Of a DNA stretch of 64,000 bases, positions 56,736-62,364 are shown in pieces. Source of the stretch: Limibacillus sp. (GTDB taxonomy: Bacteria > Pseudomonadota > Alphaproteobacteria > Kiloniellales > CECT-8803); NCBI GenBank assembly GCA_037379885.1, contig JARRJC010000008.1:1-64000 (forward strand), read 5' to 3'. Position numbers and translations under genes: made by a program. Positions within the stretch are counted from its first letter, which is position 1, and the number at the start of each line of letters is the position of its first letter. The notes beneath the pieces were generated by a model. The model was not told where the DNA came from. It did no database searches and saw only the letters and a list, made by a program, of their open reading frames with translations.

Positions 56736-57011
56736 ATGCGGATGTTTGTAATCGAGAGGGACCTCCCGGCGGTCGGCAGCATGGAGCATCATGAGCTTCG
56801 CGAGGCCGCGCAGAAGTCCAATGAAGCGCTGAAGCAACTGGCCCCGAGGGTGCAGTGGCAGCACTCCTATGTCGCGGGCGACAAGACCTTCTGCGTCTAT
56901 CTGGCCGAGGATGAAGGCGCGATCCAAGAGCACGCCGAACTCTCGGGCTTTCCGGCCACAAAGGTGACCGAGATCAAGCGCATGATAGACCCCACCACGG
57001 CCAAGAGCTGA
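56736..57011 (+). CDS. DUF4242-family protein
   Basis: The 91-residue protein matches DUF4242: MFVIERDLPAVGSMEHHELR at the start and YVAGDKTFCVYLAEDEGAIQ in the middle, ending with a helix. A Streptomyces relative (SCO4226) binds nickel. The function here is unknown. It lies 83 bases after crtI and has its own GGGAGAGACG ribosome site. Confidence 0.85.
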   Translation: MRMFVIERDLPAVGSMEHHELREAAQKSNEALKQLAPRVQWQHSYVAGDKTFCVYLAEDEGAIQEHAELSGFPATKVTEIKRMIDPTTAKS

Positions 57012-57035: not shown

Positions 57036-57803
57036 TCAGGAGGCGGGCGACGCCGGGCCGGCGGAGCCGGCGGCGCGCGCCCTGCGCGGGCGGGCGACCT
57101 GTCGGCGGTGATAGATGATCAGGGTCAGGCCGACGATCAGCGGCACCGACCAGAGCGCGGGCGTGAGCGCCGCTTCCGGCAGGAAGCGCACGGCCCCGAA
57201 GGCGAAGAAGGCGGTGTAGACCGAAATGCCCGCGCCGACCAGCGCCTTGATGTGTTCCAGAAGCCAGTCCTTCGCCCCCGGCTTCTGCTTCAGCAGGAAC
57301 CAGAGGTTGGTTCCCACCGTCGCGAAGCCGACCAGCGAAATGGCCATCATCAGCGGTTGCCCGATCAGGTAACCCTGATAGAGGCAGTTGACCGAGGCCA
57401 GGGTCAGGACTCCCTGCAGGGCCATGTTCTTCCATTCGCGGTTGGCGGCGTGGTTCAGCTTGTTGCGGATCGCCAGCCAGCCGTACCAGGCGAGGTTGAT
57501 GGTGAGGATCGCCAGATAGAGCATCATCCAGCCGAAGATGCCGCGGATGGTCACGGCGTCGCCGAAATCCGGATGGGCCATCAGATGCGGATGGGTTTCC
57601 ACCGGGGCCAGGATGGTCGTGATCGAGATCAGGATCGCGAGGCTTCCCGTGGCCAGCATGGAATAGGTGAAGACCTTGCCGCCCAGGCGGTGCGCCTGTG
57701 CGCCCTTCTTGCCCAGCACCGGAACCCAGAAAGCCAAGAGGCCGACCGACCCGGTGATGATGTGGCCGGTGACGAAGAGATGGAATGCCGCCTCGAAAGT
57801 CAT
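57036..57803 (-). CDS. DUF2306-like integral membrane protein
   Basis: The 255-residue protein has about seven predicted membrane helices. FHLFVTGHIITGSVGLLAFW and GKKGAQAHRLGGKVFTYSML near the N-terminus contain paired His residues in a H-x8 to H-x2-G layout seen in DUF2306-type proteins, which could bind heme or metal. The ATG at 57803 is preferred to a TTG at 57821. It is divergent from the P450 gene through a promoter with a TGT-N12-ACA palindrome, so it may be under photosynthesis-type control. Function unknown. Confidence 0.6.
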   Translation of the reverse strand: MTFEAAFHLFVTGHIITGSVGLLAFWVPVLGKKGAQAHRLGGKVFTYSMLATGSLAILISITTILAPVETHPHLMAHPDFGDAVTIRGIFGWMMLYLAILTINLAWYGWLAIRNKLNHAANREWKNMALQGVLTLASVNCLYQGYLIGQPLMMAISLVGFATVGTNLWFLLKQKPGAKDWLLEHIKALVGAGISVYTAFFAFGAVRFLPEAALTPALWSVPLIVGLTLIIYHRRQVARPRRARAAGSAGPASPAS

Positions 57804-57824
57804 GGCCTTACTATCAGGCAAAAG

Positions 57825-57842
57825 TGTAAAGATGTATAGACA
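57825..57842. promoter_or_regulatory. PpsR/CrtJ-type palindrome TGT-N12-ACA (P450 promoter)
   Basis: The site reads TGT-AAAGATGTATAG-ACA and extends to GTGT/ACAC. It lies in the 79-base gap between the P450 gene and the divergent membrane-protein gene. It matches the operator pattern of the PpsR/CrtJ repressor of photosynthesis genes. Confidence 0.65.
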
Positions 57843-57882: not shown

Positions 57883-59280
57883 ATGCACAGCCCGCCCCTG
57901 CAACGCCCGCTCCTGTACTGCCCGCCGCGACCCAAACCGCTTTCGCCGCTCGGCGGGTTGATCCGCACGGCGCTCTCAGGCGAGGGCAACCTCCTGAGCC
58001 TGCTGCCGGCGGCGGCTTACAAGATGCCGGTCGGCTACCTCGGTTATTCGCGCCGCTCGATCCTGATCATCAACGACCCGGCGGCGGCGCGTTCCATCAT
58101 GACCGACCCCAGCGGCATCTATCCGAAGAACGACCTGATGGTCGGTGCGCTGGAGCCGCTGGTCGGCGATTCCATCTTCGTCTCCAGCGGGGAGACCTGG
58201 CAGCGCCAGCGCCGCATGATCGACCCGGCCTTCACCCTGATCCGCATCAACCGGGCCTTCGAGGCCATGCGCGCCGCCGTCGACGACTATGAAGACCACC
58301 TGGACGGCCTGGCCGAGAGTGGCGAGACCTTCTCGCTCGACCTGGCCATGAGCCACCTCACCGCCGACATCATCTGCCGCACGGTCTTCACCACGCCCTT
58401 GAAGTCGGAGACCGCCAAGGCCGTCTACGAGGACTTCGCGCTCTTCGAGCGCAGCGTCTCCCACGTCGAGCTGAAGCGGCTCATCTTCGACAAGCCCTGG
58501 TCCAAGGTGCCGCAGCATGAGGAGGTGCTGGCCGCCTGCCAGCGCATCCGCCAACACCTGGGCGAGCTGCTGGACAGCCATCTGGAAGAGGGCGGGCGAG
58601 ACTACAACGACATCGCCTCGGCCATCATCACGGCGCGCGATCCCGAAAGCGGCGAGGCCTTCACCCGCGAGGAACTGATCGACCAGCTTGGCGTCTTCTT
58701 CCTGGCGGGGCACGAGACCACGGCCAGCGTGCTGACCTGGGTCTTCTTCATCGCCGCCACCCAGCCGGAGGTGCTGGCGCGTCTCCGCGCCGAGGTGGAG
58801 GAGGTGGTGGGCGCGGGCGAGGTGACCTTCGAGCACACCAAGAAGCTGGTCTATACCCGCAATGTCTTCCGGGAGACGCTTCGGCTCTATCCGCCCATCA
58901 CCTTCATCCCGCGCGTTGCCGCCGAGGCCACGCAGATCGGGCGCTTCAAGGTGAAGAAGGGGGCCATGATCATGATCTCCCCCTGGACCATGCACCGCCA
59001 CGAAGCCTATTGGGACAACCCCCACGCCTTCGACCCCGACCGCTTCAGCCCGGACCGGGAGAGTCGCATCACGCAAGCCGCCTACATCCCCTTCGGACAG
59101 GGGCCGCGGGTCTGCATCGGGGCGGCCTTCGCGACGGTGGAGAGCGCGTTGATCCTGGCGCGCCTGCTGCGGCGCTTCGATTTCGAGGTGCTGGAGCCTG
59201 AGAAGGTCCGCCCCGTCGCGCGCCTGACCACGCGCCCGGCCGAGCAGATACGCCTCAAGGTGCGCCGGGCTGCGGGGTAG
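57883..59280 (+). CDS. Cytochrome P450
   Basis: The 465-residue protein has all P450 landmarks: the oxygen-binding I-helix FFLAGHETTASVLTW near residue 275, E-x-x-R in FRETLRLYPP near residue 330, and the heme loop FGQGPRVCIGAAF with its ligand Cys near residue 410. It has no N-terminal membrane anchor, so it is probably soluble or peripherally bound. Its position beside crtD and crtI, with a PpsR-type palindrome in its promoter, makes a carotenoid or other pigment-linked hydroxylation likely; bacterial carotenoid P450s such as CYP175A1 are precedents. The substrate is unproven. Its last 26 bases overlap the convergent ATP-grasp gene. Confidence 0.93.
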   Translation: MHSPPLQRPLLYCPPRPKPLSPLGGLIRTALSGEGNLLSLLPAAAYKMPVGYLGYSRRSILIINDPAAARSIMTDPSGIYPKNDLMVGALEPLVGDSIFVSSGETWQRQRRMIDPAFTLIRINRAFEAMRAAVDDYEDHLDGLAESGETFSLDLAMSHLTADIICRTVFTTPLKSETAKAVYEDFALFERSVSHVELKRLIFDKPWSKVPQHEEVLAACQRIRQHLGELLDSHLEEGGRDYNDIASAIITARDPESGEAFTREELIDQLGVFFLAGHETTASVLTWVFFIAATQPEVLARLRAEVEEVVGAGEVTFEHTKKLVYTRNVFRETLRLYPPITFIPRVAAEATQIGRFKVKKGAMIMISPWTMHRHEAYWDNPHAFDPDRFSPDRESRITQAAYIPFGQGPRVCIGAAFATVESALILARLLRRFDFEVLEPEKVRPVARLTTRPAEQIRLKVRRAAG

Positions 59281-60433
59281 GCACCGCGCCGCCGTCCGGC
59301 GGCTCCGTCCAGAGGATGTCGCGGGTCGCCGCTTCCCCGAAGGTCAGGCCCTGGAAGATCGAGGGCAGCAGGATCTCATAGGAGGTGAAGGTCATCAGCA
59401 GAAGCGGCAGGGGATCGTGCCAGGCCCAGGTGACGTCCCTGGACCCCAAGAGCTGGCGCAGCTTTGCGCGAAAATCCTTGCCGGTGAATAGCGCCGCCTG
59501 CGTCTCCGTCAGGCAGGGCAGGACCTGTTGCAGCCGGGTCTCCTTCCGGAAGGGCACAGGGGTCCGCGCGCCCGGATCGATCACCGCCTGGGCCAGCGCG
59601 CGCGGCTCCAGGAAATGGATGCCGCTGGTGACCCTGGGGTTGCACTCGATCGCCTGACAGGGGCCGCCCTCGGGCTCGATGAAGTCAAAGGAGATGAAGC
59701 CGGAATAGCCGCTCTTCTCCAAGAAGCGGTCGATCCAGGAAAGCGCGGTCTCGGGTTCTTCGGCCCGCCGGAAGGCGACCGCGACGCTGCCGGAAAAGAC
59801 CGTTCCCTCATAGACCACCGTCGCCCGCGCCTTGCCGTTCTCGGCCAGGGTGAAGCTGGAGAGGTGGCGTCCCTCCAGCTTTGCCTGAACCACCGTGGGC
59901 GGGAGGCTGCCGGGCGTAGGCAGGGCCTCTCCCCGTTGCAGGAACTTCAAGCCGCTTCCCGAACAGCTATGGACCTGTTTCAGGACCGTGGCGCTCCGCC
60001 CCGCCAGGTCCGCGGCCTCGGGCCTGCCCAGCAGATGGGTCTCCGGCGCCGGCAGCCCATAGTCCCCCGCCAGCCGGATGAAGCGCAGCTTGTCGTGCAG
60101 TGCCAGAAGCCGCTCCAGGGGTTCTGAGAAGAGCCGCACGCCCGGCGGCAACTGAGGAGCCGCAGCCACGACATGCAGCGCCTCCTCGGAGACCGGCACC
60201 ACGAGGCTGACGCCCTCGCTCCGGATCGCTTCGAGGAGCGCGCGGCGATAGCCCGCCGGGTCTTGAACGGGCGAGGGCAGCCGGATGCACTTATCGACGC
60301 TGCGCGAGACACGGGCGAGGTGCCACCTGAAGGGCTCCGCGATCACCACGCGCCATCCGGCTTCCGCGAAGCCGCGCGCGAGGTCGAGCGCCTTGGGTAG
60401 GCGCCCCAGGGTCAGAAGGACGGTCGGGGCCAT
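59255..60433 (-). CDS. ATP-grasp family ligase of unknown substrate
   Basis: The 392-residue protein has an ATP-grasp layout. A Rossmann-like N-terminus (VLLTLGRLPKALDLARGFAE) is followed by the ATP domain, with DKLRFIRLAGDYGLPAPETH near residue 118 and the metal-binding segment YSGFISFDFIEPEGGPCQAIECNPR near residues 245-270, where Glu and Asn bind magnesium. ATP-grasp enzymes join a carboxylate to an amine or thiol through an acyl phosphate. The acceptor cannot be told. It lies between P450 and bchI genes and may be linked to pigment or envelope changes in phototrophic growth. Confidence 0.85.
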   Translation of the reverse strand: MAPTVLLTLGRLPKALDLARGFAEAGWRVVIAEPFRWHLARVSRSVDKCIRLPSPVQDPAGYRRALLEAIRSEGVSLVVPVSEEALHVVAAAPQLPPGVRLFSEPLERLLALHDKLRFIRLAGDYGLPAPETHLLGRPEAADLAGRSATVLKQVHSCSGSGLKFLQRGEALPTPGSLPPTVVQAKLEGRHLSSFTLAENGKARATVVYEGTVFSGSVAVAFRRAEEPETALSWIDRFLEKSGYSGFISFDFIEPEGGPCQAIECNPRVTSGIHFLEPRALAQAVIDPGARTPVPFRKETRLQQVLPCLTETQAALFTGKDFRAKLRQLLGSRDVTWAWHDPLPLLLMTFTSYEILLPSIFQGLTFGEAATRDILWTEPPDGGAVPTPQPGAP

Positions 60434-60477
60434 GGGGGCCGCTCCTGTCTAGTCCGGGGCGCGGGCCGCCCCGGCGA

Positions 60478-61020
60478 TCAGAGCTCGCTCTTGGAATGCA
60501 GCTGGCGCGAGGAGAAGCCGGGACGCGCGGCGGGGCGGGCCCGGATCTCCCGGTTGATCGCGCCGCGCCGTTTTTCCTGCGGCGCGGGCTCGCGGCAGCC
60601 GCCCGGACAGCTTACCTGACGGCGTTGCTCGCCGGGCTGGAAAAGATCGCCGCAGGTCTGGCAGGCGCGCAGCGGCAGCTTGTTCTGTAGGGCGTCGAGC
60701 AGGGCCAGCCAATGGGCGACTTCCGGATCGTCGCTGGTCGCGACGAAGTAGGGCATGAAGGACCAGGCGTCCAGAAGGCTCACCACGCGGCGGTCGTGCT
60801 CCAGAAGATTGATGCGCCGGCACAGCAGCATCCACATCTCAACGTACTCCGCGCCTTCGGCGTCGGCCATCCCGCCCTCGCGCAGGTCCAGGGGTCCCGC
60901 GTAGTGGTGGAGGCCTTCGGCGTCGGACTCGCTCTCCCAAAAAGTGGCGACGATGGCCTTGCGTTCCGCATGGCCCTCTCCTTCGCCTTTTCGCTCCAAG
61001 ATGCTGCTGTTCTGTTCCAT
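60478..61020 (-). CDS. Unknown protein with C-x2-C / C-x3-C zinc-finger-like motif
   Basis: The 180-residue protein has a helical middle part (EMWMLLCRRINLLEHDRRVV) followed by LRACQTCGDLFQPGEQRRQV and SCPGGCREPA, a C-x2-C plus C-x3-C pair that looks like a zinc ribbon. The tail is basic and low in structure. No family is recognised. The ATG lies 28 bases from a perfect TGT-N12-ACA palindrome, and the gene is divergent from bchI. Control by the PpsR/CrtJ-type repressor is therefore likely. It could be a regulator or an assembly factor for the photosynthetic apparatus; this is inference from position. Confidence 0.65.
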   Translation of the reverse strand: MEQNSSILERKGEGEGHAERKAIVATFWESESDAEGLHHYAGPLDLREGGMADAEGAEYVEMWMLLCRRINLLEHDRRVVSLLDAWSFMPYFVATSDDPEVAHWLALLDALQNKLPLRACQTCGDLFQPGEQRRQVSCPGGCREPAPQEKRRGAINREIRARPAARPGFSSRQLHSKSEL

Positions 61021-61047
61021 GGTTCCACCGCAGTCGCTAGAGACAAC

Positions 61048-61065
61048 TGTCCTTTTTAGTGGACA
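61048..61065. promoter_or_regulatory. PpsR/CrtJ-type palindrome TGT-N12-ACA (left bchI region)
   Basis: TGTCC-TTTTTAGT-GGACA is a perfect palindrome with the TGT-N12-ACA spacing. It lies 28 bases before the start of the leftward unknown gene. The 324-base gap up to bchI contains no other gene. Confidence 0.7.
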
Positions 61066-61237
61066 CTACAAAGTTGACACATAGCCTATCCCGCCGCTTG
61101 ACCTCTCTGCAAGCGAGATAGAGGATTTCCAGGCAGGTGGAGCTTTAATTATCTGAAATATCACATAATATAGCGCCGTGAGAGGACATCTTCGTGATCT
61201 CTTAAGATGCAGGTCGGGCTGAATTCGGTGGGAAAAG

Positions 61238-61255
61238 TGTCTCAAAAAATAGACA
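61238..61255. promoter_or_regulatory. PpsR/CrtJ-type palindrome TGT-N12-ACA (bchI promoter)
   Basis: GTGTCT-CAAAAAAT-AGACAC is a perfect palindrome of the same type, ending 89 bases before the bchI start. Together with the site at 61048 it brackets the divergent promoter; PpsR tetramers are known to bind pairs of such sites. Confidence 0.7.
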
Positions 61256-61344
61256 CTCTCTCACGAAGCAGGATTTGCATCCGTCAAGGAAAGAGCACAG
61301 ACTCTGGCGCGCGACAGGCAAGATCAAGACACAGGAACACCCGC

Positions 61345-62364
61345 ATGAAGCAGCCCTTTCCCTTCACCGCGATCGTCGGCCAGGACGACCTGAAACTCTC
61401 GCTTCTGGTGGCGGCGGTGGACCCGTCGGTGGGCGGGGTGCTCGCCTTTGGGGATCGCGGCACCGGCAAGTCGACGACGGTGCGCGCGCTGGCGGCCCTG
61501 CTGCCCTCCATGAAGGTGGTCAAGGGCTGCCGCTTCAACTGCGACCCGGAGGCCGGCAAGGCGCTCTGCGAGGACTGCCGTGCCAAGGAGAAGGCCGGAA
61601 CCCTGAAGACCCAGAGCGTTCCCGTCCCGGTCGTCGATCTGCCGCTGGGCACCACGGAGGACCGCATCGTCGGCGCGCTCGACATCGAACGCGCGCTGCT
61701 GCATGGCGAGAAGCACTTCGAGCCGGGGCTTCTGGCGCGCGCCCACCGCGGCTTTCTCTACATCGACGAAGCCAACTTGCTTGAAGACCATCTGGTCGAC
61801 CTGCTGCTGGACGTCGCCGCCTCGGGCGAGAACGTGGTGGAGCGGGAAGGGCTCAGCCTGCGCCATGCCGCGCGGCTGGTCCTGATCGGCAGCGGCAATC
61901 CGGAGGAGGGAGAGCTGCGCCCGCAGCTGCTCGATCGCTTCGGACTCTCGGTCGAGGTGCGCACGCCCGACGACCTGAAGACCCGCATCGAGATCGTGCG
62001 CCGCCGGGACGCCTATGAGCGCGACCCCGACGCCTTCCTGGCCAAGTGGAAGCGCAAGCAGGGCCAGCAGCGCAGCGCCCTGGTCAAGGCGCGTGAGCGC
62101 CTGGGCTCGATCACGGTCTCCGACAAGGTGATGGAGGCCTGCGCACGGCTCTGCATCGCGGTGGGCAGCGACGGCCTGCGCGGCGAGCTGACCCTGATCC
62201 GCGCGGGACGCGCTCTCGCCGCGCTGGAAGGCGCCAAGAGCGTGACCAAGGAGCATCTGAAACGCCTCGCGCCCTTGGCGCTGAGCCACCGGCTGCGGCG
62301 CGATCCCCTGGACGACAGCGGCTCCTCCGTCCGGATCGAGCGCGCCGTGGCGGAGACCCTTTAG
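61345..62364 (+). CDS. bchI: BchI, magnesium chelatase ATPase subunit I
   Basis: The 339-residue protein is the AAA+ motor of magnesium chelatase. Walker A is GDRGTGKSTTVRAL near residue 36, and Walker B with following motif is GFLYIDEANLLEDHLVDLLL near residue 136. IGSGNPEEGELRPQLLDRFG is the sensor/arginine-finger stretch. It works with BchD and BchH to insert magnesium into protoporphyrin IX, the first committed step to bacteriochlorophyll. The ATG at 61345 with AGGAA 9 bases upstream is chosen over extensions into the operator. bchD follows after 21 bases. Confidence 0.96.
   Translation: MKQPFPFTAIVGQDDLKLSLLVAAVDPSVGGVLAFGDRGTGKSTTVRALAALLPSMKVVKGCRFNCDPEAGKALCEDCRAKEKAGTLKTQSVPVPVVDLPLGTTEDRIVGALDIERALLHGEKHFEPGLLARAHRGFLYIDEANLLEDHLVDLLLDVAASGENVVEREGLSLRHAARLVLIGSGNPEEGELRPQLLDRFGLSVEVRTPDDLKTRIEIVRRRDAYERDPDAFLAKWKRKQGQQRSALVKARERLGSITVSDKVMEACARLCIAVGSDGLRGELTLIRAGRALAALEGAKSVTKEHLKRLAPLALSHRLRRDPLDDSGSSVRIERAVAETL

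Follow-up and report, generated by a model that had tools for sequence, protein, structure and literature searches.

Which gene stands divergent from bchI in this Limibacillus genome, does it belong to the photosynthesis regulon, and what might its product do? The gene, here called orf180, lies in the window analysed, a stretch of 64,000 nucleotides. Our answer, held tentatively and with somewhat less than even confidence as a whole, is that orf180 is a lineage-specific gene in a PpsR-controlled slot divergent from bchI; we infer for it repression, co-transcription in a joint unit with an ATP-grasp gene, zinc binding and an accessory role of the zinc-finger kind. The regulon part of this answer is strong and the biochemical role is weak, which makes the finding sound but modest. 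The features needed first are the two divergent genes and the putative PpsR sites:

60478 to 61020, minus strand: orf180, an open reading frame of 180 aa with an ATG start, divergent from bchI
61345 to 62364, plus strand: bchI (TIGR02030, 506.8 bits against a cut-off of 466.95)
61048 to 61065, no strand assigned: putative PpsR site of orf180, TGTCCTTTTTAGTGGACA, model score 17.8, third in the window
61238 to 61255, no strand assigned: putative PpsR site on the bchI side, TGTCTCAAAAAATAGACA, model score 20.0, top of the window
57825 to 57842, no strand assigned: putative PpsR site between the divergent starts of p261 and a P450 gene, TGTAAAGATGTATAGACA, model score 18.2, second in the window

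The original prediction of a gene divergent from bchI was borne out, and the frame at 60478-61020 on the minus strand has a coding signature. GC content by codon position is 0.71/0.47/0.83, a gene-like pattern, and the codon score reaches 0.45 bits/codon, as against 0.44-0.81 in ten annotated genes of the window and at most 0.005 in each of the remaining five frames. Over its first two thirds, the frame scores as high as known genes do. Along the last third, which contains the finger and the tail described below, it drops to 0.24 and then to 0.13. An Rfam search of 60400-61400 gave no match. In our reading, orf180 is a real gene, and it looks particular to one lineage. Because it was found in one genome only, conservation cannot demonstrate selection on the protein as such, on the cysteines or on the start.

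The CrtJ/PpsR recognition sequence is given as TGT-N12-ACA in a passage of PMC5362033. Two such sites, 172 bp apart, occupy the 324-bp intergenic region between orf180 and bchI. For the one at 61048, the distance is 27 bp to the orf180 ATG and 279 bp to the bchI start, so that orf180 has the TGT-N12-ACA near its start that is expected of a PpsR/CrtJ regulon gene. The palindrome before the ATG had been called perfect: the site is present, 27 bases away, and it is exact in its arms only (TGTCC ... GGACA), its central 8 bases not being palindromic. The bare motif is not rare in the window (6 observed, 3.04 +/- 1.66 expected, and 8 of 100 shuffles reached 6), and therefore a single site proves little. 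One site within 100 bp before the ATG was obtained in 132 of 5000 shuffles. Of 5000 dinucleotide shuffles, 9 had at least two sites in the intergenic region and none had two of high model score.

For training, the site model used six sites that precede crtC/crtE, bchC and a bchE-like gene; the orf180/bchI region contributed no site. When the window was scanned with it, 61238, 57825 and 61048 ranked first to third and the next place scored 13.2, a ranking to be read with the small number of training sites in mind and with the fact that these six had been selected for the TGT-N12-ACA core, which all three top places share. A second strong site within 7-9 bp, usual and not required in the PpsR/CrtJ regulon, was not found by the model at 61048. 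The site gaps at other promoters of the host genome are 7-8 bp, whereas the gap between orf180 and bchI is 172 bp. Distant pairing has a precedent in passages of PMC4452267, where the spacing of paired CrtJ/PpsR sites is 8-9 bp or as much as 240 bp, with 240 bp at puc and 76 bp at crtI of R. capsulatus.

A regulon of this kind also calls for ppsR in the genome, and ppsR was found on the contig of orf180 (472.7 bits against a cut-off of 275.4). Around it lies a large, full photosynthesis cluster, in which site pairs precede crtC/crtE, bchC and the bchE-like gene; apart from ppsR and the profile-tested families, the cluster genes were named by sequence inspection. Close pairs, 8 bp apart, occur at 68039/68065 and 70189/70215 of contig C8. 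Genome-wide, TGTC-N10-GACA was counted 23 times as against 15 for the reversed control, a modest excess. Outside the main-cluster contig, a pair 7 bp apart precedes a bchE-like gene on contig C40 (L146:4539-4581).

The slot itself offers a further comparison. At E 1e-60, bchI was detected in 16 of the 61 genomes of the order, host included. In three order relatives (G002, G050 and G005; loci L101-L103), crtA, identified by inspection, stands divergent from bchI; a nearly identical site (TGTCAATTAAACYCGACA) lies 184 to 200 bp before bchI at these loci, and a P450 relative follows. The crtA proteins of L102 and L101 are 76% identical. The remaining 13 bchI loci of the order carry varied divergent genes or none above the filter, L105 and L111 being incomplete. 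Like crtA (spheroidene monooxygenase) in L101-L103, orf180 combines this position and direction relative to bchI with a PpsR-like site; by contrast, the two have no sequence similarity, and orf180 has no sign of an oxygenase. crtA was not detected in the host genome, while nearly the same query locally finds L101, L103 and L081. A passage of PMC3176799 also gives crtA as absent from the NOR5 clade. In our proposal, orf180 would have come to occupy the PpsR-controlled slot that crtA holds in the three relatives. A simple reading in which it replaces crtA is weakened, because these relatives have crtA together with the P450.

In summary, orf180 has in common with the PpsR/CrtJ regulon genes crtA, bchI, bchC and puc the near-upstream TGT-N12-ACA, the ppsR gene in the cluster and the slot divergent from bchI; unlike them, it is no known member of the regulon. 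The prediction that it belongs to the photosynthesis regulon is well supported by the presence of ppsR, by a site model built from independent promoters and by the use of the slot for a pigment gene in three relatives. We consider it very probable that orf180 is a member.

How widely is the gene distributed? The genome sets searched overlap. Among 58 genomes of relatives, the own genome was the single match. The 61 order genomes gave two (the own genome and L086, at E 0.001) and the 385 class genomes gave two (the own genome and L002); the second match is chance in both cases, with two stops in L086 and a stop within the matched stretch in L002. No relative was found in 81 loci, 80 of them bchI loci (L002 aside, E was no better than 0.019 in tblastn and 0.41 in phmmer), nor, at E 0.001, in the 16 bchI loci of 15 order relatives or in 39 phototroph genomes, which account for 39 of the 80 bchI loci. 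At E 1, weak rows appeared in 24 of these 39 genomes (best 0.00197), and at E 0.05 the core piece matched 13 of 398 phylum genomes, namely the own genome and 12 weak rows. We realigned 16 loci from the phototroph and phylum sets and rejected these rows as chance: in the 13 alignments listed, stops were crossed or the C-x2-C/C-x3-C was missing. The finger piece alone, searched at E 10, gave rows at E 1 or worse. Plasmids and phages at E 1 held no match, and neither did viral contigs and genome contigs in scans that require exact 8-residue stretches. The second member of the host family (G001) lacks orf180 and, at E 1e-60, bchI. All these searches used a single sequence and can therefore miss distant relatives. 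Within the sets searched, orf180 appears to be an orphan, and we found no description of it or of the P450/ATP-grasp module in literature searches on photosynthesis gene clusters and their unknown proteins, on carotenoids and P450, and on crtA/bchI/PpsR.

These results bear on one claim of the original prediction. Homologues common in non-phototrophs, which would have counted against it, were not what the searches returned; they gave no homologue at all. Since the other phototrophs searched, across the bchI loci and the phototroph genomes, have no relative of orf180, we reject a general role in regulation or assembly of the photosynthetic apparatus, and in that capacity the gene is unimportant.

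The same absence of any relative is what one would expect under the main rival explanation, in which the PpsR sites 61048 and 61238 act cooperatively on bchI, and orf180, a young or decaying ORF, just happens to lie beside the former and has no selected function. The coding signal that fades in the last third fits this explanation as well, and distant site pairs within one promoter region are known from passages of PMC4452267. However, the first two thirds of orf180 score like known genes, its ATG is followed by an ATP-grasp gene at operon-like spacing, and 61048 is 27 bp from that ATG as against 279 bp from the start of bchI. We therefore regard a functionless ORF as unlikely, and continue with orf180 as a functional, lineage-specific gene.

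The protein has cysteines at 67, 120, 123, 138 and 142. The C-x2-C/C-x3-C region seen in the original prediction is present as follows:

residues 120 to 142 of orf180: C120-x2-C123 ... C138-x3-C142, a zinc-finger-like motif

Shuffling the protein 200,000 times gave a comparable pair of Cys pairs 536 times. An acidic N-terminal part and an acidic middle of neutral hydropathy precede the C-x2-C ... C-x3-C-R knuckle, which is followed by a basic tail; the C-terminal third has a pI of 10.6 and ends in SKSEL. The best reading is a small soluble protein with a zinc-finger-like knuckle. The lack of a recognised family held up in all searches: none was found in Pfam and NCBIfam at E 1 or in PADLOC and PDB at E 10, and the sole Pfam match at E 10 was PhnG (E 0.27), from a fragment of orf180. 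A single-sequence AlphaFold2 model was too poor for use (mean pLDDT 42.3). In PHROGs there was a weak match to phrog_1333, at E = 0.0044 for a 44-aa piece and 0.011 for the whole protein, with the alignment confined to residues 114-155, the finger. This phage family with a Cys finger aligns with orf180 in the finger region, whereas elsewhere there is no similarity. Its profile did not match the own genome at E 0.01, and as a lead it was given up: of 142 class genomes searched at E 0.01, four matched, three of these across internal stops, and no family was gained. A CxxCGxxF...CxxxCR stretch resembling the finger of orf180 is found in L160. Of the zinc site suggested for this region, the motif stands and a weak finger match has been added, which leaves zinc binding plausible.

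The knuckle and the basic tail of pI 10.6, together with the PpsR-type control predicted by the site model, are also what a DNA-binding transcription regulator of pigment genes, from a new family, might be expected to have. Against such a regulator, no zinc-finger family (CGNR included) or DNA-binding family was recognised in Pfam up to E 10, and orf180 is absent from all other phototrophs searched, so that we consider this explanation doubtful, more so than a functionless ORF. For orf180 as an accessory protein, the finger-like knuckle and the tail suggest binding of a nucleic acid or of a partner protein.

The operon context of orf180 suggests service to a pigment module. Its neighbours are:

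59255 to 60433, minus strand: ATP-grasp protein, PRK06849-like and below the model cut-off, 44 bp downstream of orf180
57883 to 59280, plus strand: cytochrome P450 (Pfam PF00067)
57036 to 57821, minus strand: p261, a probable membrane protein with no family above the cut-off

In the gap between orf180 and the ATP-grasp gene, we found a CAGGAG Shine-Dalgarno-like run and a GC-rich hairpin (60434-60480) that has no T run and is no more stable than shuffles (z 0.18); no terminator-like site was found between the two genes. From this arrangement, the two are likely to be co-transcribed. Relatives of the ATP-grasp protein lie near bchI, at 43-48% identity, in L025 and L026 (Methyloversatilis MAGs) and in L066 (HTCC2080), three of 80 bchI loci, many of which are truncated. 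All three loci also have P450 relatives (60-66% identity), and L026 and L066 have p261 relatives (60-62%). None of the three has orf180, so any dependence of the ATP-grasp protein on it is not general. More distant ATP-grasp relatives, at 27-33% identity, occur on plasmids of varied bacteria (10 of 12 matches listed). LysW and LysX are a small zinc protein and an ATP-grasp ligase, LysW being an acidic protein of about 54 aa with an EDWGE-type C-terminus; that orf180 is a carrier or partner acted on in this manner, as the adjoining ATP-grasp gene and the putative zinc site might hint, is highly improbable, given its 180 aa, basic tail and SKSEL end and the ATP-grasp relatives that do without it.

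Our preferred reading, a lineage-specific accessory gene under PpsR control, would work as follows. Under aerobic, repressing conditions, PpsR on the 61048 and 61238 sites would shut off both bchI and the orf180/ATP-grasp unit; once repression is lifted, both would be expressed. This scheme derives from the known mechanism of PpsR. As a local zinc-finger accessory protein, orf180 might then bind nucleic acid or a partner protein and tune the ATP-grasp/P450/p261 pigment module. Such a role may be local to this module and not concern the photosynthetic apparatus in general.

If this is true, the PpsR regulon gains one further gene, restricted to one lineage, and an orphan gene has been wired into an old regulatory slot. 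Of wider interest is the P450/ATP-grasp neighbourhood, which recurs in beta- and gammaproteobacterial photosynthesis clusters. Together with p261, it possibly serves pigment tailoring. A bolder version, which we think rather unlikely, sees p261, the P450 and the ATP-grasp protein as a hitherto unrecognised module for pigment tailoring, to which orf180 has been added locally. Controlled by PpsR and standing in for crtA in the host genome, this module would make a new carotenoid or bacteriochlorophyll derivative and would be common to phototrophs of three proteobacterial classes. Between crtI and p261 lies a gene for a small SCO4226-like protein (PF14026) at 56736-57011.
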